Shown here: positions 1 through 31,621 of the stretch, in pieces | Layout of the letters: the number at the start of each line of letters is the position of its first letter | Numbering within the stretch: position 1 is the first letter of the stretch | Source: a virus | Length of the DNA: 40,680 nucleotides | Strand: one strand, 5' to 3' | IMG/VR virus record: IMGVR_UViG_3300031977_000338 | Location: 1 to 40,680 of that record | The notes under the pieces: generated by a model | Databases searched by the model: none | The model's input: the letters and a program-made list of their open reading frames with translations, nothing else | What the model was told of the DNA's origin: nothing | Made by a program: the position numbers and the translations under genes

Positions 1-237
1 GTCAATGCTGTCTGAGGCTGTCAGAGCCGTGTCAAACACTAGGTTAGAACCAGACACTGTGAAGCTGTCCTGTGGTGCTTGGATAACACCATTCAGAGAT
101 ACTAGCAGTTGGTTAGCACTCTCTGGATAATATGCCGCAGAACCTAGCGTCAAAGCGTAGGTATCTGTAGCAGAGGCAGTCAGAGCATCCAGCTTGTGAA
201 AGCCACCGCCTACTGGATTTTTACCTATGTATGGCAT
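1..237 (-). CDS. Tail-fibre-module protein, N-terminal part (runs off the left edge)
   Basis: This ORF starts at ATG 237 behind a good ribosome site (AAGGAG, 6 nt spacing) and stays open to base 1, giving 79 residues. It begins MPYIGKNPVGGG and continues with a stretch of the type YPESANQLLVSLNGVIQAP, typical of small tail-fibre or receptor-binding proteins of T7-like marine phages. It closes the run of tail genes from 5296 downwards. If the contig is circular, its missing part lies at 40680-40482, but the two pieces are offset by one base, so a clean fusion is not seen. The exact role in the tail is inferred from position and composition. Confidence 0.6.
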   Translation of the reverse strand, partial: MPYIGKNPVGGGFHKLDALTASATDTYALTLGSAAYYPESANQLLVSLNGVIQAPQDSFTVSGSNLVFDTALTASDSID

Positions 238-246
238 ATTTTCTCC

Positions 247-627
247 TTATGGCTTTACAGGCCATGTTACGTCATCAAGAGATGTAGCATTGTCTGTAAT
301 ATCACGTAGTGCTTGCCGATAATCTATTTGAGCCTGTGTCATTGTTAAGTCAGAACAAGCCCACCAATCTGTTTTAGAAAGAAGTTTGTTTCTTTCTTCC
401 CTTAAATCTTCAAGGGGCTTTGATGCAACAAGTTCATTATATTTTGTTTTTATTTGACTCCAAGTAACACCAAAATCACTTGGGTTATCAGAAAGAATTA
501 TCCTGTCATCACTAACGCCTATTTGCTTTTTAAAAAATTCTAAAAACTCACTTTCGTTAGTAGGCTCTCCATACAGCATGTATCCTGTAATATTTAATTC
601 TTTTAATACTTTATCTATGGTAATCAT
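247..627 (-). CDS. Putative tail-fibre assembly chaperone (Phage_tail_APC-like), 126 aa
   Basis: I chose the ATG at 627, which overlaps the stop of the upstream gene as ATGA; the longer ORF would run far into that gene. The C-terminal part contains LLSKTDWWACSD, then MTQAQIDYRQALRDIT, and ends WPVKP. This pattern is characteristic of small phage tail assembly chaperone proteins encoded next to fibre genes. The N-terminal part (residues 1-50) is a lysine- and glutamate-rich segment that I do not recognise. Its role would be helping fold or attach the fibre proteins encoded around it. Family assignment is from motif memory; partner identity is inference. Confidence 0.7.
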   Translation of the reverse strand: MITIDKVLKELNITGYMLYGEPTNESEFLEFFKKQIGVSDDRIILSDNPSDFGVTWSQIKTKYNELVASKPLEDLREERNKLLSKTDWWACSDLTMTQAQIDYRQALRDITDNATSLDDVTWPVKP

Positions 628-1184
628 CCAGCAATCTCCATAGCCATAATAATTGTTGGACAAGTTACTGCTGTATCGGCTGCTCTTCTTCCAAGATAAG
701 CTGTGCCGCCAGTTTGCACTGCCCAACCTAAGAAATATCTACATTCATTGGTAGTTTGAGGTTCATCTAAAACAGAAAAACAAAAACCATTTGTTGCGCC
801 TGTATCATTATAATCCCTCTGCATCCACAACAAAGTTCCAGAAAAAGAAGCACTTTCACTAACACTATGACCTATATTAACGACTGACCCTGTTCCTGTA
901 CGGTTATATGTCATACCTACATAATACCCCCCACTACTAGTTACAGAACCGCTTGTAACTATAAGTATTTTGCTAGTAGTAGCACTTGGGGTTATTCTAA
1001 AGTCAATACCAGTATCACCAAAAGCTGTAGTTGAACTGCCGTTAGAACGAGTAGTTGTATCCACAACTTGTTTAACTTGCAAAACTTTTCCTAAAGAACC
1101 AGAAACAGCACCAGTTACATTTCCTGTAAATGCATAATTATCAGCAAGGTTAATACTTTCTGATTGTATTTTTGATAAAGCCAT
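624..1184 (-). CDS. Tail-fibre / receptor-binding type protein, 186 aa (paralogue of the gene at 40000-40470)
   Basis: The protein starts MALSKIQSESINLADNYAF and has a SGSLGKVLQVKQVVDT segment. This is followed by a predicted beta-rich domain containing DFRITPSATTSKILI, a Gly/Ser/Thr-rich middle part, and the ending MAMEIAG. The same landmarks (VLQVVQ, then ITPISTSSKIMVE, then LTEIAG at the end) occur in the protein at 40000-40470, so the two are paralogues. This beta-rich layout is common in tips or adhesins of marine phage tail fibres. It overlaps the chaperone-like gene downstream by four bases, which suggests translational coupling. Binding target is unknown. Confidence 0.7.
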   Translation of the reverse strand: MALSKIQSESINLADNYAFTGNVTGAVSGSLGKVLQVKQVVDTTTRSNGSSTTAFGDTGIDFRITPSATTSKILIVTSGSVTSSGGYYVGMTYNRTGTGSVVNIGHSVSESASFSGTLLWMQRDYNDTGATNGFCFSVLDEPQTTNECRYFLGWAVQTGGTAYLGRRAADTAVTCPTIIMAMEIAG

Positions 1185-1194
1185 TTAAGTCTCC

Positions 1195-1560
1195 TTATGC
1201 GTAAGGATTGTCACCCAATGTGGCAGTATCCCAAGCAGCTTTTAGTTCAGTGATGGTTGTAGCGTTAGCAATAGCTGAAGCAGCAGGTGCATCACGCAGA
1301 GCGTCCTTCGCAGTAGCAATGGCTGAAGTGTCAGCACTTGTTTCCAATGCTTTCATTAGTTCTACATCTTTAGCTTCTAGTAAAGGCGCACGTACTTCAC
1401 GTACCTTGTCCTTAAAGATTTCTTTAGCTTTGTCCATGTCTTCTGAGATTACGTTACCTGAGAGTACCCAAGCACCACGAAAGTCACGATTAGCTGGAAC
1501 GGTAACACTAGCAGCATTTGCCTGATTACCGTCTTTATCTACGATATATGTATCAACCAC
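1195..1560 (-). CDS. Tail-module accessory protein, 121 aa
   Basis: The N-terminal third (VPANRDFRGAWVLSG) precedes a helical, charged part containing DMDKAKEIFKDKVREVRAPLLEAKDVELMKALE. This is a layout often found in small phage proteins encoded beside tail fibres, some annotated as fibre assembly or DUF4376-like proteins. I see no catalytic motif. It is preceded by an AGGAG-type ribosome site and lies between the gene at 1570-2034 and the fibre-like gene at 624-1184, so a role in fibre assembly or attachment is likely but inferred. Confidence 0.6.
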   Translation of the reverse strand: MVDTYIVDKDGNQANAASVTVPANRDFRGAWVLSGNVISEDMDKAKEIFKDKVREVRAPLLEAKDVELMKALETSADTSAIATAKDALRDAPAASAIANATTITELKAAWDTATLGDNPYA

Positions 1561-1569
1561 TATATTCTC

Positions 1570-2034
1570 CTATGCGGCTATGTTAAGTTCCTCAGAAATC
1601 TTCCAAGCATTACGCCATTCTCTAGTCTGAGGTAGTTGTTTTTTAGTGCAAATAATCATCTTAGGACGATTACCTTCGTTATAGTTTTCCCACACATGAC
1701 GAGGGCAGTCCTTGAGAATTAAGTACTCAATCGCTTCTTCCTCAGTCATGGCTTCTACAGGTTCTGTTTCGTGCAGTAAGTAGCCTCTTGTGTGGCGTTT
1801 AAAGCCCTCTGAAGCCTCGTCTTTGGCTAACTCATGGTAAACCCATACAGGCGGTAAGATGCCACCCTGTAATGCACAGGCCATCCAGTTAGGGTCAGGC
1901 ACAAGTATCTTGGCGCACTCATCAATGCTATCCTCAAAGACAACACGGTAATCTGACTGCACTGGCTCAAGACGCTCTTTAGCCCAGCACAGTCTATCCC
2001 ATAGATGTGTGCCTTTAAATTGAGGTGTGTTCAT
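1570..2034 (-). CDS. Conserved tail-module protein of unknown function, 154 aa
   Basis: The sequence includes LQGGILPPVWVYHELAKDE, an acidic MTEEEAIEYLILKDCPRHVWE segment and a C-terminal basic stretch (NRPKMIICTKKQLPQTREWRNAW). I recall similar proteins in the tail region of T7-like marine phages, where they have no assigned function. No signal peptide, membrane segment or catalytic motif is visible. The start follows the stop of the upstream gene with no gap, so it is co-translated with the fibre-type triplet. It could be an adaptor or chaperone; I do not assign one. Confidence 0.6.
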   Translation of the reverse strand: MNTPQFKGTHLWDRLCWAKERLEPVQSDYRVVFEDSIDECAKILVPDPNWMACALQGGILPPVWVYHELAKDEASEGFKRHTRGYLLHETEPVEAMTEEEAIEYLILKDCPRHVWENYNEGNRPKMIICTKKQLPQTREWRNAWKISEELNIAA

Positions 2035-2427
2035 TTAAGCTAGGTCTCCGTGAATAGTTACATTGTTTTCCAACGTGTCATCATCACCATTGGCTGTCGT
2101 TTGTGAGTGAAAAAGTAGCACCGCAGTTGTTTTGTTGCCATTTGTACTCACTCCAAAAGCAGGAATATTTAGATACCTAATATTGTATTCGCCAACGCCT
2201 ACCGTTGCAGAATAGTAAACGCTATCAAAACTTGAAGTCCAATTAAATTGTGAACGCCCGTTACCAACGTCACCTAAACTGCTCATGTTTAAAGAATCAT
2301 GCAAAACATACGTACCAGCTTGAGTGTGTACATTCCAAGCCTTCGCACTACCATTAACAACATAGCTGGTGGATATATCAGCACCAGCACCTGTCTCGAT
2401 TGTATCTGCTATAATCTTGCCAGCCAT
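2035..2427 (-). CDS. Tail-fibre-type protein, third copy of a tandem triplet, 130 aa
   Basis: This is one of three adjacent paralogues (with 2429-2842 and 2842-3216). Shared landmarks are an N-terminal I-x-ADTI segment, a SAKAW box near residue 30, a DSLNMSS box, an F-x-x-SFDSVYY box and the C-terminal ending HGDLA. The middle is rich in Ser, Thr, Asn and Gly and looks beta-structured. No enzyme motif is seen. Position downstream of the main fibre gene suggests a virion surface or receptor-binding role. The copies are strongly diverged between the shared landmarks, as expected of proteins under host-range selection. Confidence 0.65.
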   Translation of the reverse strand: MAGKIIADTIETGAGADISTSYVVNGSAKAWNVHTQAGTYVLHDSLNMSSLGDVGNGRSQFNWTSSFDSVYYSATVGVGEYNIRYLNIPAFGVSTNGNKTTAVLLFHSQTTANGDDDTLENNVTIHGDLA

Positions 2428-2428
2428 T

Positions 2429-2842
2429 TTATGCTAAGTCTCCAAATGCTGATGTGCAAACAAAGTCTCTATCCGCAGAACCAGTTTCGTTCTGATGAAT
2501 AGATGTCTGCAACTGTGATGCGGTTGGCGTTGTGCTAACTCTTAGCCCAGCTATAAAAGCTTTATTTGAACTGGAGTTATTCATTGTAGACATGTTCCAG
2601 CCGTAGTTCACATTGTTAAAGCTGTTCGTAAATGCGTTAATATACGCACCGCTTCCATCGTCTGTGACTGAGGCAATGTTGAGCGAGTCCAGTGTTGCTA
2701 TTGTGCCTGTGCCGTCTAAGTTAATCCACGCTTTAAGCACCCCCTGTTGCAGTTGCATTGTAGCAGAACCGCCCTCAGAGGTGATGGTCACATTGCCAGC
2801 AGAAGCCTTACCTGTGAGTTTATCTGTAATTATTTCCGACAT
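2429..2842 (-). CDS. Tail-fibre-type protein, second copy of the tandem triplet, 137 aa
   Basis: The start is set at ATG 2842 (MSEIITDKLTG), which overlaps the stop of the preceding copy as TGATG; an upstream start would run into that gene. It carries the triplet landmarks VLKAWINLDG, DSLNIASVTD, FTNSFNNVNYGW and the ending FGDLA. Compared with the other copies it has an extra N-terminal stretch (VTITSEGGSATMQLQQG) like the collagen-free linkers of small fibre proteins. The product is probably structural and exposed on the tail. Function is inferred from position and composition. Confidence 0.65.
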   Translation of the reverse strand: MSEIITDKLTGKASAGNVTITSEGGSATMQLQQGVLKAWINLDGTGTIATLDSLNIASVTDDGSGAYINAFTNSFNNVNYGWNMSTMNNSSSNKAFIAGLRVSTTPTASQLQTSIHQNETGSADRDFVCTSAFGDLA

Positions 2843-3216
2843 CAGGCTAAGTCTCCGTGAAGTGAAAAGAACACAAATTCGCAATCTAAAGCAGCATTAT
2901 TAGACCCTTGAGCAGTAACAACAGTAAGGTGGTCTGTTGCTGGATTGTTAATACCACTCATAACAGCGTGAAGAACAGTACTTTTCTCCCCTGAGCCTGT
3001 TGCGGAATAATTTGCGTCATTCATGTTGTTTGTAAATTGTGGGTCTCCAGCACCTACAGCTATATCTGTAACGCTACTGCAATTAAAACTCCCGTTTACA
3101 CCAAAGGTTGTTAAGTTAGTAAAATTAGCCCACGCCTTTGCAGCACTCTGCTTAGTCAGCGTGACAGGGCTAGAGCCGTCTGATGCTACGATTGTATCTG
3201 CTTTTAATGTACTCAT
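2842..3216 (-). CDS. Tail-fibre-type protein, first copy of the tandem triplet, 124 aa
   Basis: It begins MSTLKADTIVASDGSSPVTL and continues with QSAAKAWANF, CSSVTDIAVG and FTNNMNDANYSAT, ending LHGDLA. These match the order of boxes in the next two genes. It overlaps the upstream gene by four bases and the downstream copy by one base, so all three would be translated from one message. The N-terminal ADTI segment resembles the start of many phage proteins that dock to a fibre or baseplate. The receptor or partner cannot be told from the sequence. Confidence 0.65.
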   Translation of the reverse strand: MSTLKADTIVASDGSSPVTLTKQSAAKAWANFTNLTTFGVNGSFNCSSVTDIAVGAGDPQFTNNMNDANYSATGSGEKSTVLHAVMSGINNPATDHLTVVTAQGSNNAALDCEFVFFSLHGDLA

Positions 3217-3725
3217 ACTATCACCAAATTGCCGTTGACCGTCAACGTAACCCCTGTTGCCACTGTCAGGCTAAAGAAAGCCCCAGCGTTATCACCAGCC
3301 GCAATGGTGGTGTTTGTGTCTAACTGTTGCTCATGCACCCGAAAGATATCGCCTTTGCCATTGGTAGTATCGCCTGTCGCACCATTCTCGCCCTGAAAGT
3401 AGCCAGCACCTAAGGACAAGCTGGGAGCAAGTTTAGCCTGTGTAACAGAACCATCAGGCGGTACTGTAGTCTGCAAAGCCAAGCCATTGTAAACCACATA
3501 GATATCGTCTGTATCAACCACTGACCCTGTCAGCGTTACTGTTGTGCCAGATACACTATAAGCAGTGGTAGGCTCTTGGCGTACATTGTTAATAAACAGG
3601 TCAATGCTCTCTGCGCTGGATACAGGATGTGTAAGCGTTAGGTTTATACCTGTAGCACCAGTTAAGTCTTGTTTAGCAGGGATACTGCTGTAGCCTTCTA
3701 CGGCTTGATTACCTACGTAACCCAT
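3213..3725 (-). CDS. Tail-fibre-type protein, 170 aa
   Basis: I chose the ATG giving MGYVGNQAVEGYSSIPAKQD, two codons inside the longest ORF, because the MGYVGNQ start is usual in this protein type. Residues 20-90 (LTLTHPVSSAESIDLFINNVRQEPT, then YSVSGTTVTL) resemble the repeated beta unit also present in the partial gene at 1-237 (LLVSLNGVIQAP, then FTVSGSNLVF). The C-terminal half is Gly/Asn/Thr rich and ends TVNGNLVIV. It is probably a fibre or adhesin subunit. It lies directly downstream of the gene at 3738-4073. Confidence 0.65.
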   Translation of the reverse strand: MGYVGNQAVEGYSSIPAKQDLTGATGINLTLTHPVSSAESIDLFINNVRQEPTTAYSVSGTTVTLTGSVVDTDDIYVVYNGLALQTTVPPDGSVTQAKLAPSLSLGAGYFQGENGATGDTTNGKGDIFRVHEQQLDTNTTIAAGDNAGAFFSLTVATGVTLTVNGNLVIV

Positions 3726-3737
3726 AGTCAATCTCCC

Positions 3738-4073
3738 TTATGTGCTAATGTCATCAACAGCAGATACCCATACATCCAGTGAAGCTGCGGTATCTGATTC
3801 AACCCATAGTCTGTCACCAGATTGTACGACTAGCTTTGCACCACCGTCTAGTACCTGTAACGCACCACCAGCAGCGATAGGCGCACCCTTGATGAGGTAC
3901 ACATCGCTTGTACCATCATTGATGTACGCATCTACTGTGATTGCGTTAGCTGTTGTGTTTGTCATGTGGATACCTACAATGGTATCGAAACTGTCAAAGT
4001 TAGCCCCATCAGGAATATCTGCGGCTGAAGTGCCTACGCCCTGTAGGGTATATCGTCTAAAATTCTGTGCCAT
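3738..4073 (-). CDS. Small virion-like protein, 111 aa
   Basis: The protein (start MAQNFRRYTLQGVGTSAAD) contains FDTIVGIHMTNTTANAITVDAYINDG and later GGALQVLDGGAKLVVQSGDRLWVES. This is an all-beta pattern found in small phage structural proteins that decorate virions or cap fibres. No membrane segment or enzyme motif is seen. It sits between the main tail-fibre gene and the smaller fibre-type genes. A similar size and style is seen in the 103-aa protein at 37449-37760, but I could not establish true homology between them. Confidence 0.6.
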   Translation of the reverse strand: MAQNFRRYTLQGVGTSAADIPDGANFDSFDTIVGIHMTNTTANAITVDAYINDGTSDVYLIKGAPIAAGGALQVLDGGAKLVVQSGDRLWVESDTAASLDVWVSAVDDIST

Positions 4074-4087
4074 AATTATTCCTTAAT

Positions 4088-5296
4088 TTATAGAGCCACA
4101 CTCATGGCTATCGCAAAGCCAGCAGTTGCGCCAGCAGTAATTGCTATCCACGTTGTTGTACCTAAGTCATACACTTTTAAGTTATTAGAGGTGGTGTCGT
4201 AGTACAATGCGCCATCAATCAAAGCGTTACCATCATTGTCTACTGTTGGGTCGCTAGACTTACTGCCTAAGTACTTGTCATCAAAGTTATCAAAGTGTAC
4301 TGCTGCTTGTTCAGCATAGTACTTAGCTGAGTACAGAGTACCATCCACAGTACCAGCAGTGTATGTAGCCCAATCTTTAGATGAGCCACCACCAGACGAA
4401 CCACGTCTTTGAATACCGATAGCGTACTCCTTCGCAGAGTACTCAGTACCATCTACCTGATTAGTAGTATCTGTTGCCCACTCTTTAGCAGACCCTGAAC
4501 CAGCCGTATCAGTTACACCTGTACCACCTGTAGCCCATGCTTTAGATGAGTAGCCTGTGCTATCAACAATACCATTTGTCTTTGTAGCCCACTCTTCTGC
4601 TTCATCAGCAAAGTTACTAGCTTCACCAGCTTTAGTTGTAGCTGTTGTGGCGTTAGCTGATGCGTTCTGAATGTCTGTGATATTTGCAGCGTTAGTATTT
4701 ATTGAAGCTATGTTAGTAGCGTTTATGTTTACATTAGCAATATCTGTAGCTACAGTACCAATGTCTGTAGCATCGGCTGCAACTGCTGTTACATCGCTAG
4801 AGATACCTGCAACTGTAGTCACATCACTTGCGATACCTGCAACAATGTTGATGTTAGGTAGGTTCGTAGAGATAAACTGCTTGTTTACAGCGTCTGTATT
4901 ATCTACAGGGTCTGCAACATTCTTAATAATCTTACTCTGTGCGTCCCACTTATCGTCAGCACCTAAAGTAATACCATCGTTAGACTTGTCCACAGCTTCC
5001 TGTGCAGCGTGGAAGGTCTGGATGTTGGAGTTATCCAAATCTTCTTCTGTCAGGACTGAGCCAGAGGCAAAGTCTACTGAACGTGCTGTAAGGTCTGTGG
5101 TTCTCCGCACCTGCACAAGCGTACCTGTAGCAGGGGCAGAGGTTAATTGAACACTAGCAGCAGAAGGAAAAGTTAGGCCAGATTCAGCCACACCGTCTAC
5201 TGTTACACTGATTTCAGAGTTATCAGTGAAAGTAAAGGGGATAGCAAAAGTGTCGGTTGCATTATCCCCTGTATAGTTTTGATATGAAAAAGCCAT
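4088..5296 (-). CDS. 17: Main tail fibre protein with T7 gp17-like N-terminal domain, 402 aa
   Basis: Residues 1 to about 140 (MAFSYQNYTGDNATDTFAIP, then VLTEEDLDNSNIQTFHAAQEA) match the N-terminal tail-attachment domain of T7 gp17. Residues about 145-230 form a repeated I-A-x-V / N-x-x-I pattern typical of a trimeric coiled coil. Then come four loose repeats with a W-A box (EEWATKTNG, SKAWATGG, AKEWATDT, SKDWATYT), each followed by a YSAK-like turn. The C-terminus has a small domain with GALYYDTTSNNLKVYD. T7 gp17 is longer (553 aa), so the receptor-binding tip is probably supplied by the small fibre genes downstream. The gene follows the 13-bp element at 5323-5335, a likely promoter. Confidence 0.85.
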   Translation of the reverse strand: MAFSYQNYTGDNATDTFAIPFTFTDNSEISVTVDGVAESGLTFPSAASVQLTSAPATGTLVQVRRTTDLTARSVDFASGSVLTEEDLDNSNIQTFHAAQEAVDKSNDGITLGADDKWDAQSKIIKNVADPVDNTDAVNKQFISTNLPNINIVAGIASDVTTVAGISSDVTAVAADATDIGTVATDIANVNINATNIASINTNAANITDIQNASANATTATTKAGEASNFADEAEEWATKTNGIVDSTGYSSKAWATGGTGVTDTAGSGSAKEWATDTTNQVDGTEYSAKEYAIGIQRRGSSGGGSSKDWATYTAGTVDGTLYSAKYYAEQAAVHFDNFDDKYLGSKSSDPTVDNDGNALIDGALYYDTTSNNLKVYDLGTTTWIAITAGATAGFAIAMSVAL

Positions 5297-5322
5297 TGCT
5301 TATCCTTCTGTGTTTAGTCAAT

Positions 5323-5335
5323 GATGTAACTTTAG
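5323..5335. promoter_or_regulatory. 13-bp repeated element, copy D (before the tail-fibre gene)
   Basis: The minus strand reads CTAAAGTTACATC, two bases after the stop codon of the gp16-like gene and about 30 bases before the tail-fibre start. The identical 13-mer occurs at 20532, 29138 and 35698, and inverted at 31606. Position matches that of the T7 phi17 promoter. A role as phage RNA polymerase promoter is inferred, and its direction is not settled by sequence alone. Confidence 0.6.
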
Positions 5336-5336
5336 G

Positions 5337-8300
5337 TTAGTCTGCTCCATACTTAGCAGATAAGTAATTTAAGCCTTGATTGACACCATAAAATTTAGCC
5401 ATAGGTATAGCGTTCTTAAGTGTTCTCAGTTCAGTCTCAGTAAACTTACCATCTAAGATGTCATCACCTACCCCTAAAAAAGCTTGAAAGATGTTATAAG
5501 CTGGTGGTGTAAAACCATTACTTGTTCCTGTAGCAGTTCCTGTTACCATTTGAAAAGCTAGTGTAAATATAGATATAGCACCTACTTGACTTATAGCACC
5601 CATAGTAAACCTATCCCAAGCCATCTGTCTCTTAATGTATTCATCAGCGTCACTTCGTCCAGCAGCGTTTAACTGTACTCTAGTAGTATATAATAAACTA
5701 CCCCATAACATAGAAGCAGTCATTAGCTTTGTTATAGCAACAGCTTCCCCTGTCATAGCTCTTCTACCCAGACGTGCTGTTTGTTGTTCAAGAGCAGCTA
5801 AAGGAAACGAAAGAAACTGTCCAAATATTTGACCAACAGTAGAACGTAACATATAATTCATAGAACCTATGTTTACTTCCTGAACATTCTGTGTAGTTTC
5901 TCTTAATAATGACATAGCCCAAACTTCAGCAGCTTCTCTATCTGTCCATTGGTCTACGTTCATATAATCTAATTCACCGTCTGGACGTAACTTTGCCCCT
6001 GTTTGTGGGTCATTTATAGCATTAAATATACGTCTTTGCATAACAGGGTTTATACCCTGCTGTAACATCTTAGTCTCGCTAAAAGGTGCTTTTCCTTTTT
6101 TAGCTGAATCAAACCATTGTTGAGTATAGTTAAACATTGTTAAGCGTCTGTTATAAGCTGTAACAGGAAGCAATCCACTACCTATAGAGACAGCTTTAGA
6201 TATTTTACCTAATGTCTCGTCAAACTTAGTAGTTCTAAAAATACTAGGTTCTAGTGCAGATTCAGCATCAAAACGAGTAGCACGATTAACAGAAGCCATA
6301 AGGATTTCTTCACCCTTGCCGCCTGTAATAAATACTAATTCTCTTAAAGTTTTAGAATCTAACTGACCATCTGATGCTCTTTTGTAAAACTCTTTTAATC
6401 TTGACATACTCTTAAAGTTAGTTCTTAGAGAGTACTCCATCAAAGAGTTTGTAACTTCCATTAAAGCGGATAGACCAGCCATAGGCATCATAGCAGCATA
6501 AGTCCACTGCTTGGCTCTACGAACTGCTAGTTTTAATGCTTCAGGTGATGTATCTTTAGCACCTAATCTACCTGTCATACCATCATACATAAACTGCATA
6601 GCTTTTAATTCTTCAGTAGTACTTGTATAACCTTTTTCAGCAGCGTGGTCTGTAATTTTTTTTAGAACATCATCCCAAGAACTACCTACAACATTAGTAT
6701 CAATACCTACTTTTGCCAATCCATACGCACCTGCCATCTGAAAGTTGTAGGCGTTCTGAATAGTCTGGATATTATTCTCCAATAAATCAGTAAAGCGTAA
6801 AGTTTGAATATTACCATTAACATCCACTGCGTCAATAGTAGCCATCTCATTTAGAATAACGCGAGGCTGTGTACGTTTATGCTTTCTTACTGTAGCATCT
6901 TTACTTAAGAAGTATACAGCATCATTAATCTGTTCTTCTCTAATACCAGCAGTAAGCATAGCTTGCTCTAGTTCCTCAACATCAAAAGGTCTACTGATTA
7001 TTGTACCCCCTGAGGCATAAGGTCTACTTAGTACTGTCTTAGTGTATCCAGATGCCATAGCATCTATGTACTTTGTGACATCTTCTTGACTAACTGGTTT
7101 ACCTGTTCTTCTAGCTATACTCTCAGCTACTTCTGAAGCTATTTCAGGTTGTGCTTCTAGTATAGCTTTTCTTACTAGGGACGTAACAATCGTCAGGCTT
7201 TCTTCCATACCAAACCTACGTCTAACTGCATCAATACCTTCATCTGAAAACAGACGAGCTAGATAAGTGTTAGGGTCAATCCTACCTTTTGTTAAAAGTT
7301 CAGGTGTAAAACCAGCAGCGTTAGCCTTAATATTATCTTCTAAGAAACGTCTGTTTGCTTTGATAATCTTATCAGCTACTTCTCTAACTTCAGGAGCAAC
7401 AGTTCTATCGTTTGCTCTAATAGCCATAGTCACAGCTTCATCAAAGTCTTCTTGTTTTCCACCTGTTCTTTTCTTCCAAGCTTCGTATGGTTTTTGATAA
7501 GCTATCTCAAACTCATATATACCCTGTCCCTCACGTTGCATTTTATACTCAGTAGCAGCAGGGGCAACAGGTGGTACAATACCTGTTTCAGGGTCAGGTG
7601 AGTGTCCTCTACTGGTTAGTCCTATTTTATCTGTGAAGTACCTAGTAAAGGCGTTCTCTGATTTCATACCTTTTGATTGAGAAGAAAACCAACTACGTAC
7701 AGCAGTAAACCTATCATCTTGTTGAGGCGCAGCCGCAGCCGCTTGAGCTTCAGTTACGTTAGTAATAGGAGAGTTTAGGTCTATATCGTCAGCTAACATA
7801 CGAGAAGCTTCTGCCTCTTCTAACGCTCTCTGCGCTGTTATAGGACTATCTACACTATCTAAAAAAGCTAACTCATTAGATGTTAAAGGTGTACCTGATT
7901 CATATTCTCTGAGTAAAGTTTGATACTGTTTCTTTCTACGCATTGCTGTAGTTACACTACTAATACTTCCAGAAAGAATAGTAGACGCAGCCATTGCTAT
8001 GGCTACATCTCCACCTGTAACATCGTACTTATCTGTAGCTCTGATACCCTCAAAGAAACCAGCTTCAGCAGCACCTACACCAGCACCTATCTTAAATGAC
8101 CTACTTACGTTATAAGCTTTTTTACCCAAAGCTACACCACCAACCTGAGGAGCTAGTGTAGTAGTAACACCAATAGCAGCAAGCTCTGGTAAATCTGTCA
8201 GTGCTGCTACAACTGTAGCAAAAGCACCTTTACCGCCAGCACTAGCAAGAAGCTCTCTATTTGCTTGAGTTTTCTTATGGTCTTCTGCTAATGCTTGGGC

Positions 8301-24113: not shown

Positions 24114-24609
24114 GCTGTATGCACTCCTTTGCCTGTCCAACAGACATCTTGAACCACTCACCTCTACGCTCTGCTATCTTACCTGCTACCTTATGTGCTG
24201 CTGCTTCAGCCCTACGTCTGTCTTTGGTATCCACTGCATACACAACTTTGTAGTCTCTGAATGGACTGCTAGTCTGGTAACCATTACACCTGTCTTCTGC
24301 ATCAACAGCCATACCTATCTTTACCCACTCAGGCCATGCTGAGTTAGTAATGATGTAGACCTGCCCCTCAGTACTACGCTCATAATTCTGAAGACCAGAG
24401 AAAGCAGCTTCATCAAATGACTTGTATCTACCTGCCTTCCACAAAGGATGGGACTGTGGTACATACTTACCATTAACAAACATTCTATTCTTATTCTTTT
24501 TATTATGTGCTGTAACTCTTCGTCTTCCATCAGCCTGTCCATAATACCACCACTCACCATCTTCAAAGACTGTGTTAATGTTAGTGGGTGTCTGCCCAGT
24601 TTCTTCCAT
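24103..24609 (-). CDS. GIY-YIG type nuclease-like protein (T5orf172/MUG113 domain), 168 aa
   Basis: ATG 24609 is preferred over the ORF start at 24696, which would overlap the DNA polymerase by 116 bases; the chosen start still overlaps by 29. The C-terminal half contains GQVYIITNSAWPEWVKIGMA, then DRCNGYQTSSPF, then RRRAEAAAHKVAG and GEWFKM. This is the T5orf172 variant of the GIY-YIG fold with its Arg and Glu. The first half has WWYYGQADGRRRVTAHNKKN, perhaps DNA-binding. Such free-standing genes next to DNA polymerase are often homing nucleases or recombination factors. No catalytic proof. Confidence 0.8.
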   Translation of the reverse strand: MEETGQTPTNINTVFEDGEWWYYGQADGRRRVTAHNKKNKNRMFVNGKYVPQSHPLWKAGRYKSFDEAAFSGLQNYERSTEGQVYIITNSAWPEWVKIGMAVDAEDRCNGYQTSSPFRDYKVVYAVDTKDRRRAEAAAHKVAGKIAERRGEWFKMSVGQAKECIQHGL

Positions 24610-26293
24610 ACTTGTACTCGCTGTCGAGTTTGCATCTGAACTTGAAGTGTCGCTGGACTTCTTCCATACATAGCTGAATAAGTTTTCCTGTTGCATCTTC
24701 CTGACCTTCCTTTACTACTAACTGTACCTCATCGTGAATGAACGCAACAATCTGTGCATCCAAGTTTGCTTCCTTGATAGCACGTGCAATAAACACGTAC
24801 CATGTCTTACAGATTATAGCACCACACGACTGAAGTAAAGTATTCAGTGAAGCATGGCTATGACGAACTGGTATAGCTCTGCCATCCAATCCCTTGACCC
24901 ATCCTCTTTCATCTGCTGCATTAGCTACAGCATCTTTAAGATACTTGAGGGCTGGTAGTTTCTTCAGAAACTTATTCTTAATAGACTTACCTTCCTTCGC
25001 TCCCTTGTTAATTATCTTACCAATCTTCTCATCACCTGCACCGTACAAAAATCCATAGATGAATGTCTTGGCATTGGAACGTGTGGGTAGACCAGCAGCT
25101 TCTTGGTTGATGGTGTGAACGTCACCATTCACTACCTCATGTGCATAAGACCCATCGTCATAAGCAGCCATGTAATGAGCAAGGCAACGCAACTCCAACC
25201 CACTAGCATCAGCACCCAAGAGGGAGTAGCCTGAGGGTGCATGAAACAAACTCCTACACTCAGTACCAAATGGCGCACCCACGCTAGGAACTTGTGCCAT
25301 GTTTGGATTGCTGTGCGTACAACGTGAAGTGACAGCACCCATGTGATTAACTCTACCATGTAACTTACCATCCTTTTCCATCTTCAACCAAGCTTGCTTG
25401 CCTGTAGCTATCTGTCCTACTCTTTTATTTAATAGTAGATACTCAGTCAACAGCTTTGCTTCTGGCATGTCAATGTTAGATAGTACTTCTTCATCTACCT
25501 TTGGGTCACCACTGTTGGTATGTGCTTTAGGCTTCCATCCTTTCTTCATCAGTCTATCTGCTATCTGTTGACGTGATGCAGGGTTGAATGGTATGGTCTT
25601 GGTCTTAGTCTTCATCTCAATTACAGTAGGTTCAAACACCTGCTGTAACTCATTCTCTATCTGTTGCTTACGCTCTGCTAGATTAGAGTACAGAGACTGT
25701 GCTGCCTTGACATCAAAGTCAAAGCCTCGTTCCTGTTGCTCTATCAGTAGAGTATGTATCTCAGTCTCAAGGTCTAGTGCCTCTTTGCTAAAATTTTTTT
25801 GCAGAATTTTGAGATAGAGTTTGTAATTGACCATCGTGTCTTGGACACAGTAGTCAAGCATCTCTTGTGAGAAAGCTCCAAAGCTCTCAATATCGCTACC
25901 GAAATCACCTTTTAATTCTCCTAGTCTGTAGCCCCAAGCTTTCAAACTCTGCCTACCAATTAATGCTAGTGGCATCTTATCTTGCTTGTGCAGTTTGATA
26001 TCAACCTCACGTATGTCAGGCCATATTGTTCTAGAGTATACCAGTGTGTCAAGAATCTGTTGTCCATCTTCCACTTCAAAACCATACAGCTTTTTCAATA
26101 CTGCTAAGTCATACTCAATAATGTTATGACCTATCAACATCTCAGCACTGGCTAGATGAATCAACCCATCCTCAATACAAGTGGGGTCAAAGGCGTACAC
26201 TTCGTTAGTGTCTACATCTCTTGTTACAATGCACCACACCTGTGTTACATCATCCAAGAGATTGTCTGCTTCTATATCAAATATTAGTTTCAT
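24581..26293 (-). CDS. 5: DNA polymerase, family A, T7 gp5-like, 570 aa
   Basis: The 3'-5' exonuclease domain is at the N-terminus (FDIEADNLLDDVTQVWC, with Asp6 and Glu8; later GHNIIEYDLAVL and YCVQDTMVNYKLY). The polymerase has GADASGLELRCLAHYMA (motif A), LPTRSNAKTFIYGFLYGAG (O helix, Tyr at the position equal to E. coli Pol I 762) and AFIHDEVQLVV (motif C). T7 gp5 has 704 residues; this one lacks the roughly 75-residue thioredoxin-binding insert before the FNPASRQQ box. It follows the primase-helicase by 22 bases. Tyr762 is the usual residue of strictly lytic T7-like phages. Confidence 0.97.
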   Translation of the reverse strand: MKLIFDIEADNLLDDVTQVWCIVTRDVDTNEVYAFDPTCIEDGLIHLASAEMLIGHNIIEYDLAVLKKLYGFEVEDGQQILDTLVYSRTIWPDIREVDIKLHKQDKMPLALIGRQSLKAWGYRLGELKGDFGSDIESFGAFSQEMLDYCVQDTMVNYKLYLKILQKNFSKEALDLETEIHTLLIEQQERGFDFDVKAAQSLYSNLAERKQQIENELQQVFEPTVIEMKTKTKTIPFNPASRQQIADRLMKKGWKPKAHTNSGDPKVDEEVLSNIDMPEAKLLTEYLLLNKRVGQIATGKQAWLKMEKDGKLHGRVNHMGAVTSRCTHSNPNMAQVPSVGAPFGTECRSLFHAPSGYSLLGADASGLELRCLAHYMAAYDDGSYAHEVVNGDVHTINQEAAGLPTRSNAKTFIYGFLYGAGDEKIGKIINKGAKEGKSIKNKFLKKLPALKYLKDAVANAADERGWVKGLDGRAIPVRHSHASLNTLLQSCGAIICKTWYVFIARAIKEANLDAQIVAFIHDEVQLVVKEGQEDATGKLIQLCMEEVQRHFKFRCKLDSEYKYGRNWADTH

Positions 26294-29153: not shown

Positions 29154-30803
29154 TTACGCAAAGAAATACTGTGACTTTAGAACCTCACGTAAATCTAAGT
29201 TACCTTTACTTGGTGGCACAGGCACATCCTGTGTACCAAGAACTCTTATAGCATGGTCTCTCAACTCTGTCAAGACATCATGCTCTTCGTACATCTTAAC
29301 AAACTCTTCACGTAGTACCTCAGATAGCATGGGCATGTTGGTTGAGTGTGTACCATAGCTGTCATGCACCATAGCAAAGTCTTCAATACCAAGTAGAGAT
29401 GCTCTGTTAATTGTCTTGGTCATAGCTGCTGCATCCATAGAGTGTATGAAGTTAGGGCTACTACCCAAGCCTGTACGCTTACGATGCACTGTGTCCTCTT
29501 TATCCTTAGGAAAGGATAGTGATACAGTGCTACCATTTATGTGTGTCTTAATCCTCTTACTGTCTGTTTCATTGTAGTGTTGTAACACCAGCCAGTTAGT
29601 TGGTGTCACCCATTCCATGTGTTTGTTATGGTCAGAGTAAACATCTGCCACGCTCTTGATGTAGTCCATCACCTGCCTAGCAGATACGATAACACCAGAG
29701 ATAGCATCCCATACGTGATTAGATAGGTAAGTAGCTGGCTCAAACAAATCATCACCAAAAGGATTGTCTGCTCCACTTATTATCTTATCGTGTATTGCTT
29801 CCTCAATGTACTGCCTACATGCGTGACGTGTACCTGAGTATGGTACAATCATAACAGGACGCTTCGCTATCTTTCTGTCAATGCCAAAGGCAATACACTT
29901 ACGTGCTATCTCACTGTCATCCTCTTGTATCCTACGCATGGTTTCTTCTGCTACCTGTGTGTAGATATCCTGAGGTAAGTCAGACACTGTAAGGTTGGTA
30001 GCCCTACCACCCTGCTCATCCCTGAGTATGGCAGAGAGATGCTGTAGTCCATTGCATGACCCATCTGCTGCACAGGGTAGACGTGTCTCAAATCCCCACC
30101 CCTGTCTGACTAGGGCTGACATCTCGTAGCACCATGAAAGAAACTGGAAGGGCTTGTCTGCTTCTAACCATAACGTGTAGTCGTATGGGTTAGCCACAAT
30201 CCTATGGGCATCAGTCTCTGCAAACTGCCATGCCCAACGCTCTCTCTCATTCAAGCTAACCTTGTCATTACCAAACAGGTTAGCACCATGAATACACAGC
30301 CATCGTGCATCGTCCCAACTGTTGATAGCTACAGGGTAGCTGAACTCCAGTAAAGACTTGCTCCAATCTGCTGACTGAGTAGAGAGGAATGTGCTGGCTG
30401 CATACTTACGAGAGCGAAAGTCGTTCTGCCATACGTAGTAGAACCTATCGTACTTGCTAAACTGTTCTGCTATCTTAAGTGTACGCTCTACCTGCACACG
30501 CTTACTCATACTGCGATTGTTTAAGGAGTAGATTTGATTACGCTTACGAGACCATGTGCGAAACATATCCCTCTCTTCCTCAGTCATCTGGTCAGGCTCT
30601 TTATCAAATGGGTAGGGTGGCAAAGGTATATCTTCCCTTGCTGGTAGGTTACCCACTTGATGCCCATTGTCCCACAAGTTACGTGTAACTTCAAGAACTT
30701 TTTTATTTATACGCCACTCAGTACGCTGTAGTGTGTTAAGACAAGCATACTCTTGGCTCAGGTTCTGCCCTCGCAATCTATTTAAGTGTGTCTTTAAACT
30801 CAT
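29154..30803 (-). CDS. 1: RNA polymerase, polymerase-domain part (C-terminal subunit of split T7-like RNAP), 549 aa
   Basis: This ORF carries the polymerase domain of a T7-like single-chain RNA polymerase from about T7 residue 305 to the end. It has RINKKVLEVTRNLWD, DFRSRKYAAS (T7 DWRGRVYAVS), AADGSCNGLQHLSAIL (catalytic Asp537), IAKRPVMIVPYSGTRHACRQ (Lys631, Tyr639) and FAMVHDSYGTHS (Asp812), and ends QYFFA like T7 (FAFA). The specificity-loop region (KTHINGSTVSLSFPKD) is shorter than in T7, so the promoter differs. It begins in an ATGA overlap with the ORF for the N-terminal domain, with GAGG in front. A coupled second protein or a frame error are both possible. Confidence 0.93.
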   Translation of the reverse strand: MSLKTHLNRLRGQNLSQEYACLNTLQRTEWRINKKVLEVTRNLWDNGHQVGNLPAREDIPLPPYPFDKEPDQMTEEERDMFRTWSRKRNQIYSLNNRSMSKRVQVERTLKIAEQFSKYDRFYYVWQNDFRSRKYAASTFLSTQSADWSKSLLEFSYPVAINSWDDARWLCIHGANLFGNDKVSLNERERWAWQFAETDAHRIVANPYDYTLWLEADKPFQFLSWCYEMSALVRQGWGFETRLPCAADGSCNGLQHLSAILRDEQGGRATNLTVSDLPQDIYTQVAEETMRRIQEDDSEIARKCIAFGIDRKIAKRPVMIVPYSGTRHACRQYIEEAIHDKIISGADNPFGDDLFEPATYLSNHVWDAISGVIVSARQVMDYIKSVADVYSDHNKHMEWVTPTNWLVLQHYNETDSKRIKTHINGSTVSLSFPKDKEDTVHRKRTGLGSSPNFIHSMDAAAMTKTINRASLLGIEDFAMVHDSYGTHSTNMPMLSEVLREEFVKMYEEHDVLTELRDHAIRVLGTQDVPVPPSKGNLDLREVLKSQYFFA

Positions 30804-31621
30804 CTACGCCTCACTATAGGTAGCTTGTTAATCTCATGCCCATGATACCCACCACCTGTAACGTCAGTCCAATCCTTTGGTACTACAACACATGGTAGGT
30901 AGCGTGGTCTGTTAGTCTCAGTAAAACTATTGAACGCATCAATCCATTCTACTGTGTCTGTCTCAGGTACAATATAGGTTGTCCTACTTGTACGCTTTAT
31001 CTGTTGTGTGTTTAGTTTTACAATGCCTGTACTCTGGATGATAAGGTCTACCATCTTGAAGCCTACATGTACACGCTCTGACTTCTGCCAAGTGTTCTCC
31101 TTGTATCCATCCTTGTTCATCTTGTTAGTCAAGCCGTAGCGTCTAGCACCATAGGCTTTCTTCATAGCTTGCTTGATTGTGTTACGTGCTATGTCACCCT
31201 CATCTGCTATCCATCTCTCTAGTCTGTCTTGTATCTCAATAGCTGAACCAATACTTCTAGCTACATGCAGCAGTGTGTTCTTCCTACTGATACTATCAAC
31301 CAGTGTGGTTAAACTAAGGTATGCAATATGCTCTGCTTGCATGTCCTTTACTTTCTTCCACGCTATGTCACGTGATGTATTGGTTGGGTTACTCTTCCAT
31401 TCCTCAATAGCAAGGGTCAAGTCATGCACTAGCCTAGCTATGATAGCCCTACCATGCAGTGTGTGGCTCTCTTTACCACGTTCTATTGATGCGTCACGTT
31501 CCTTTCTAAATCTTTCTATACCACCTGTCATCATCTCAGTTTCTAACTGTAGCTGGTGGTCAATAAGGTCTTGGTCTGTGATAGCAACGCTATCGCTGGT
31601 TGTTTCTAAAGTTACATCCAT
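30800..31621 (-). CDS. 1: RNA polymerase, N-terminal domain part (split T7-like RNAP), 273 aa
   Basis: This ORF has the N-terminal promoter-binding domain: ITDQDLIDHQLQLETEMMTG and ARLVHDLTLAIEEWKSN. It ends with LPCVVVPKDWTDVTGGGYHG, LPIVRRR, aligned with T7 YMPTLVQPRPWTTPYGGGYW, LALVRTH. The next ORF continues at exactly the following alignment column. Together they have 822 residues, against 883 for T7. The stop TGA and start ATG overlap (ATGA). A TAG in the second frame just before its ATG makes a simple -1 slip unlikely. The first codons contain an inverted copy of the 13-bp element. Preceded by a sigma70-like promoter at 31642-31670. Confidence 0.88.
   Translation of the reverse strand: MDVTLETTSDSVAITDQDLIDHQLQLETEMMTGGIERFRKERDASIERGKESHTLHGRAIIARLVHDLTLAIEEWKSNPTNTSRDIAWKKVKDMQAEHIAYLSLTTLVDSISRKNTLLHVARSIGSAIEIQDRLERWIADEGDIARNTIKQAMKKAYGARRYGLTNKMNKDGYKENTWQKSERVHVGFKMVDLIIQSTGIVKLNTQQIKRTSRTTYIVPETDTVEWIDAFNSFTETNRPRYLPCVVVPKDWTDVTGGGYHGHEINKLPIVRRR

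Follow-up and report, generated by a model that had tools for sequence, protein, structure and literature searches.

Swapping of receptor-binding domains between phage adhesins is known. Phages of the Ackermannviridae carry several receptor-binding proteins each (TSP1-4 in CBA120), with conserved N-terminal assembly domains and exchangeable receptor domains, and similar receptor domains occur in tsp1 and tsp4 (PMC11721090). In the gp37-mounted adhesin, short conserved borders flank variable receptor-binding segments. C1q-like tail proteins, encoded in metaviromic islands of marine phages, are variable recognition proteins of marine podoviruses that lie beside T7-type fibres (PF03906) (PMC3909814). 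HMO-2011-type phages have been described among the most abundant groups of marine phages (PMC6918029).

The locus analysed here lies in a stretch of 40,680 nucleotides (the window), positions 1 to 40,680 of IMG/VR record IMGVR_UViG_3300031977_000338, which is a linear virus contig and a fragment. The window encodes a T7-type capsid, portal, tail tube, nozzle, internal protein gp14 and terminase, as well as a helicase-primase, SSB, DNA polymerase A, an RNA polymerase and a B12-type ribonucleotide reductase. We propose, with a probability of about 0.7, that three adjacent genes, A, B and C (Table 1), are fixed slots for exchangeable receptor-binding tips that would terminate a T7-type tail fibre. 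Each of the three proteins would consist of a slot-specific N-terminal dock (~26-37 residues) and a beta-sandwich tip of ~100 residues. The docks would be inherited with the phage lineage and would fix the A-B-C order, and the tips would move as ~300-bp cassettes into any slot of the same or another phage type, by recombination at a short conserved border on either side, the AKAW codons 5' and GGA GAC Leu GCA 3'. To judge from its sequence and spacing, the 3' border would also supply the overlapping gene behind it with a ribosome-binding site, so that the operon would stay co-translated after a swap.

The likeness to the Ackermannviridae lies in multiple adhesins, conserved N-termini and exchanged receptor domains; conserved N-modules with exchangeable C-terminal receptor domains, the mark of a branched multi-adhesin system, are present here as a sequence pattern. 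The Ackermannviridae spikes, however, are large trimeric beta-helices with XD/TD domains, whereas the window has predicted beta-sandwich tips of ~100 aa on docks of ~30 aa, each set offers three standard slots, and the cassette border resembles the ribosome site of the next gene. No Pfam match to a gp10-like XD/TD or trimeric beta-helix domain was found, and for the tip a beta fold with 8 strands in ~100 aa is predicted. The gp37-mounted adhesin differs in being a single adhesin whose variable loops lie within the same chain; it has neither slots nor transfer between them, and A, B and C lack glycine-rich motifs. C1q proteins fill slot B in some relatives of the locus, but A, B and C are not C1q proteins, and the accessible part of PMC3909814 does not describe slots or cassette exchange.

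The isolate HMO-2011, a Puniceispirillum phage (tail fibre genes phage1322_28-41), carries five genes of the same PHROG 11355 family as A, B and C, in slots I_A, I_C, D, II_A and II_C. It differs in that both of its B slots hold other proteins plus a chaperone. Its coat is P22-type, in contrast to the T7-type capsid, portal and tail of the window phage, so the module is common to different phage types. In the open-licence literature we found no description of standard slots, a cross-slot tip pool or a dual-use border, and on that search the locus is a new, miniaturised variant of modular phage adhesins. Here the exchange is standardised: the slots are fixed, each dock is coded to its slot, the tips are interchangeable, and the borders apparently keep translation going. 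If docks and tips are separable, one could ask from sequence alone which tip sits in which slot for which host, something that comparing whole tail-fibre genes cannot reveal, and changes of host range could be traced through natural populations.

The A, B and C genes and their products

The first-pass annotation had described three neighbouring, paralogous tail genes of 124, 137 and 130 aa. The open reading frames bear this out, and the paralogy is borne out by pairwise local alignments, which score 12.8, 9.7 and 9.5 s.d. over 1000 shuffles. All three proteins also match the PHROG 11355 'tail fiber protein' profile over most of their length (A, 1.7e-17; B, 8.6e-16; C, 1.2e-11). KAW, D/GS-[FL]N-x-[SA]S and ...Y boxes follow in the same order in each, and the shared end GDLA is present in all three. 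The boxes are alike only approximately, and not in the exact wording first given: AKAW is LKAW in B, and the last box reads FTNNMNDANY in A, FTNSFNNVNY in B and WTSSFDSVYY in C. The ADTI-like start holds for A and C; B begins MSEIITDKLTG. Overlaps of one to four bases, likewise reported for the whole array, join the adaptor to A (4 bases) and A to B (1 base), while B and C are separated by a 1-base gap and C directly abuts the next gene. The suggestion of co-translation stands, an SD-like GGAG lying in frame ahead of each next start. The T7-type tail fibre (gp17) domain PF03906 is found in the fibre-anchor gene and is absent from A, B and C.

AlphaFold2 models of A (pLDDT 81.8, 8 strands) and C (pLDDT 76.0; 83-95 in the tip core, low in the docking module) both have a beta-rich tip with a confident core and a less certain N-module. 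At E<1e-3 each model matched 56 viral structures, most of them the same proteins for both, among them tail fibres of the Synechococcus phages Syn5, ACG-2014f and S-CAM7 and a spike of Klebsiella phage K5; the two predicted folds are related in this sense, and A, B and C may be called tail-tip proteins, as first annotated, by family and by fold neighbours. A fold search of the PDB returned no match at E<0.001 (best E 0.25), and a search of solved structures by sequence returned none that was significant, one having E 1.1. H-type lectins, the pyocin fibre, AP22 gp53 and LKA1 gp49 surfaced as weak fold themes, none of them significant, and were set aside. Membership of the C1q family was also rejected, as A, B and C gave no Pfam match to C1q (PF00386). 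The family names and the neighbours of the predicted folds point to receptor binding, and each tip may be a homotrimer that binds a host receptor.

Table 1. Features of the tail-tip region of the window
Feature	Positions	Strand	Evidence and remarks
Second YIGK adaptor, first 79 residues, cut by record end	1-237	-	Set II begins here in relatives
Tail assembly chaperone after alternative tip	247-726	-	PF16778 2e-11
Probable alternative tip, 186 aa, outside A/B/C family	624-1184	-	Position; ending '..MEIAG' as in relatives
PHROG 20196 protein	1195-1560	-	PHROG 1.8e-35; Pfam Phage_tail_APC 0.051
MNTPQFKGTHLWDRLCWAKE protein, 154 aa	1570-2034	-	Directly after slot C; kept there in relatives
Gene C, 130 aa	2035-2427	-	Putative dock aa 1-28 (2344-2427); tip aa 29-130 (2038-2343)
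3' cassette boundary of C	2035-2049	-	GGAGACCTAGCTTAA; putative SD for gene 1570-2034
Gene B, 137 aa	2429-2842	-	Putative dock aa 1-36 (2735-2842); tip aa 37-137 (2432-2734)
3' cassette boundary of B	2429-2443	-	GGAGACTTAGCATAA; putative SD for C
Gene A, 124 aa	2842-3216	-	Putative dock aa 1-26 (3139-3216); tip aa 27-124 (2845-3138)
3' cassette boundary of A	2842-2856	-	GGAGACTTAGCCTGA; codes GDLA-stop; GGAG is putative SD for B
YVGN adaptor, 170 aa	3213-3725	-	PHROG 18673 tail fibre 1.7e-8; 4-base overlap with A
111-aa protein between fibre anchor and adaptor	3738-4073	-	Kept in relatives
T7-type tail fibre N-terminal anchor, 402 aa	4088-5296	-	PF03906 1.4e-34

Slots, docks and tips in relatives

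We scanned IMG/VR with five queries (A, B, C and two set-II proteins) and obtained 353 loci with 972 distinct family genes. Slots were labelled by alignment to a few chosen consensus N-termini, which left 43 of the 972 genes fitting no slot. The N-termini define slots I_A, I_B, I_C, II_A, II_B and II_C, with 129-175 genes each, and a few others; as the loci were picked by similarity to the five queries, these are not population frequencies. The A-B-C order is kept in more than 100 distinct IMG/VR contigs with nearly invariant overlaps. Among 251 non-redundant loci it is the usual order and is rarely scrambled, and the overlaps recur: 4 bases at I_A/I_B (110/114), 1 base at I_B/I_C (111/115), and 1 base at both II_A/II_B (108/108) and II_B/II_C (106/106). 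Seventy loci have both sets, the second (A'-B'-C') lying downstream, and the window record ends where set II starts in relatives. An adaptor homologue (YxGK/Q/N) lies upstream of the A slot in both sets of the relatives read.

The residues ahead of the K of AKAW, the first ~26-37 of each protein, are slot-specific. Identity of these N-modules is 0.64-0.80 within a slot and 0.25-0.38 between non-corresponding slots; when a set-I slot is compared with its set-II counterpart, it is 0.50 for A, 0.56 for B and 0.38 for C. Their motifs are ..TLTKQxAA in A, ..SEGGSATMQLQQG.. in B and ..YVVNGSA in C. It is likely from this pattern that the N-modules dock to the fibre or to the YVGN adaptor. The tip (~100 residues, from AKAW to GDLA), in contrast, has a within-slot identity of only 0.35 and carries no slot information. 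Along A, entropy is lower at K27-Y70 and high at 71-120, which makes the second half of the tip hypervariable.

The first-pass annotation had offered either three receptor-binding tips or a hetero-trimer. In the latter, A, B and C would form a 1:1:1 asymmetric tip with the three N-modules as a hetero-trimeric stalk, like C1q A/B/C, and the constant presence of three slots, their fixed order and tight overlaps, and the use of corresponding A/B/C modules by two sets would all be consistent with it. Co-adapted subunits, however, would be expected to vary together, and in neither set do the distances among A, B and C tips show any correlation from genome to genome (Mantel r -0.03 to +0.01). The dock distances of set I do correlate (r 0.21-0.31, p=0.002), as do those of B and C in set II (r 0.33), the set-II pairs A/B (p 0.24) and A/C (p 0.20) not reaching significance. 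Tips also move freely among slots, and slot B is often taken by a C1q-domain protein or one of 180-445 aa while A and C stay. Finally, a tip domain of the same kind forms the end of single-chain fibres, among them the annotated tail fibre of Syn5, and such fibres are generally homotrimers. We therefore regard the hetero-trimer as unlikely and favour three independently docked receptor-binding tips.

The same annotation had derived the three genes from duplication followed by diversification. A, B and C are true paralogues, so duplication must have occurred at some time, and the correspondence of the A/B/C modules of sets I and II would fit duplication of a whole set. As the source of the present diversity, however, local duplication and divergence into three receptor tips is contradicted by the data, and we consider it very improbable: the conserved triplet long predates the window phage, tips within a genome are no more alike (median identity 0.347) than tips of different genomes (0.344, p=0.51), and the closest relative of each window tip is in another genome, with other partners. 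Equal likeness within and between genomes, the independence of the tips and the slot-B substitutes together argue for separate tips that are imported across slots.

Something other than a family gene lies between A and C at slot B in 24 set-I and 9 set-II loci. The readable substitutes are often a C1q-like protein with a chaperone gene, or a protein of 180-445 aa; in one set-I locus, L029, the slot is just a 103-base gap. C1q (PF00386) matches are confined to some of these B-slot substitutes. C1q-like and '..EIAG' proteins in slot B usually have a gene for a tail assembly chaperone (PF16778) behind them (L035, L034, L086, L032 and HMO-2011, which is L004); family tips come without a chaperone. 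The long substitutes of L251, L208, L306 and L283 end in 'LE.(K/R)(V/I)..LEA', which resembles, in sequence, the end of intramolecular chaperone (S74-type) domains.

Two further loci, L356 and L357, have a fibre anchor 81% identical to that of the window, the nearest found, and the same 111-aa protein and YVGN adaptor. A, B and C were sought in both and are absent, other tip-like proteins following instead, which makes the triplet one of several alternative sets.

Exchange of tip cassettes and its borders

Similar tips frequently occupy different slots. This is so for 204 of 439 tip pairs that are at least 70% identical and for 76 of 206 that are at least 90% identical; 111 of 181 tip clusters span slots, and three tips are identical in two slots each. 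In cross-slot pairs, nucleotide identity is ~92% inside the cassette and ~30% just outside it, on both sides. The edges are sharp. Over 84 non-redundant cross-slot cases, the median 5' breakpoint is -3 nt relative to the K codon (82/84 fall between -30 and +12), and the median 3' breakpoint is -2 nt relative to the end of the stop codon (69/82 fall between -18 and +3). An earlier, smaller sample gave the same picture, and in a tree of 219 proteins the slots are clustered yet repeatedly crossed. Single exchange events are thinly replicated: among the 111 clusters that span slots, just 3 include two or more distinct genes for each of two slots.

The window tips take part in this traffic. The tip of A sits on a set-II C dock in L007 (90% aa, 89% nt identity), the B protein recurs at 93-96% in L087-L089, and the C protein at 95-96% in L130-L132; the readable partner tips in the last two groups are only ~31-35% like those of the window.

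Sharp cross-slot similarity could in principle come from misassembly of metagenomes or from convergent evolution; nearly all relatives are IMG/VR contigs, and few events are seen in several contigs. Convergence is excluded by ~92% nucleotide identity over 300 bp. As for misassembly, the shared borders of 10-15 bp would be shorter than assembly k-mers, slot order is rarely scrambled, and identical tips in two slots recur across separate contigs (L035/L283 versus L284/L285). In addition, these slots are found in an isolate, HMO-2011, whose A tip shares 82% identity with a tip from a C slot. We give these two readings hardly any weight. A shufflon with invertible cassettes was also rejected: inverted repeats flanking the cassettes were not found in 1-5400, and the fragmentary record holds just the three copies of the A/B/C family, with no silent ones. 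For true exchange of tips, short-homology recombination is the probable route, and the T7-type ssDNA-binding protein (SSB) and 5'-3' exonuclease encoded in the window could support it. Such swaps would be expected to change host range.

The 3' border is constrained at the level of codons. GDLA ends 901 of the 972 family genes, and in these 901 the border uses GGA for Gly in 97.7% (22% in gene bodies), GAC for Asp in 91% (35%) and GCA for Ala in 90% (38%), while the Leu codons vary. The constraint on GGAGAC and GCA is thus one of DNA sequence, that on Leu one of protein sequence. An overlapping or abutting start comes after nearly every gene, so that GGAG falls 7-10 nt ahead of that start. Judged by sequence and spacing, GGAG is probably a Shine-Dalgarno site carried by the cassette itself, and GGA GAC Leu GCA would be a working ribosome site. 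It is possible, though on balance doubtful, that the borders are kept as crossover seats as well, that marine phages unrelated to one another draw on a common pool of ~300-bp tips for any of some six to nine docking positions, and that the A/B/C docks form a three-position hub on each adaptor.

Neighbouring genes

The 154-aa protein (..GTHLWDRLCWAKE..) directly follows slot C, and so the tips, in most of the relatives read. It belongs to no known family, its weak PHROG match being to HNH (0.0089), and the constancy of its position suggests a function linked to them. The PHROG 20196 protein, whose place after the 154-aa gene is also conserved, has weak similarity to tail assembly chaperones. 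The 186-aa protein, which has no Pfam match, is probably an alternative tip in a slot between the two sets; the true start of the chaperone gene that follows it is probably inside the ORF as called.

Megablast found no close relatives of the window DNA among isolates. The T7-type RNA polymerase is encoded in two ORFs (30800-31621 and 29154-30803, minus strand) that overlap by 4 bases and carry RPOL_N (PF14700) and RNA_pol (PF00940); the enzyme may truly be split, or the record may carry a one-base error. An ORF with a GIY-YIG-like T5orf172 domain (PF10544; 24103-24696) overlaps the end of the DNA polymerase gene (24581-26293).
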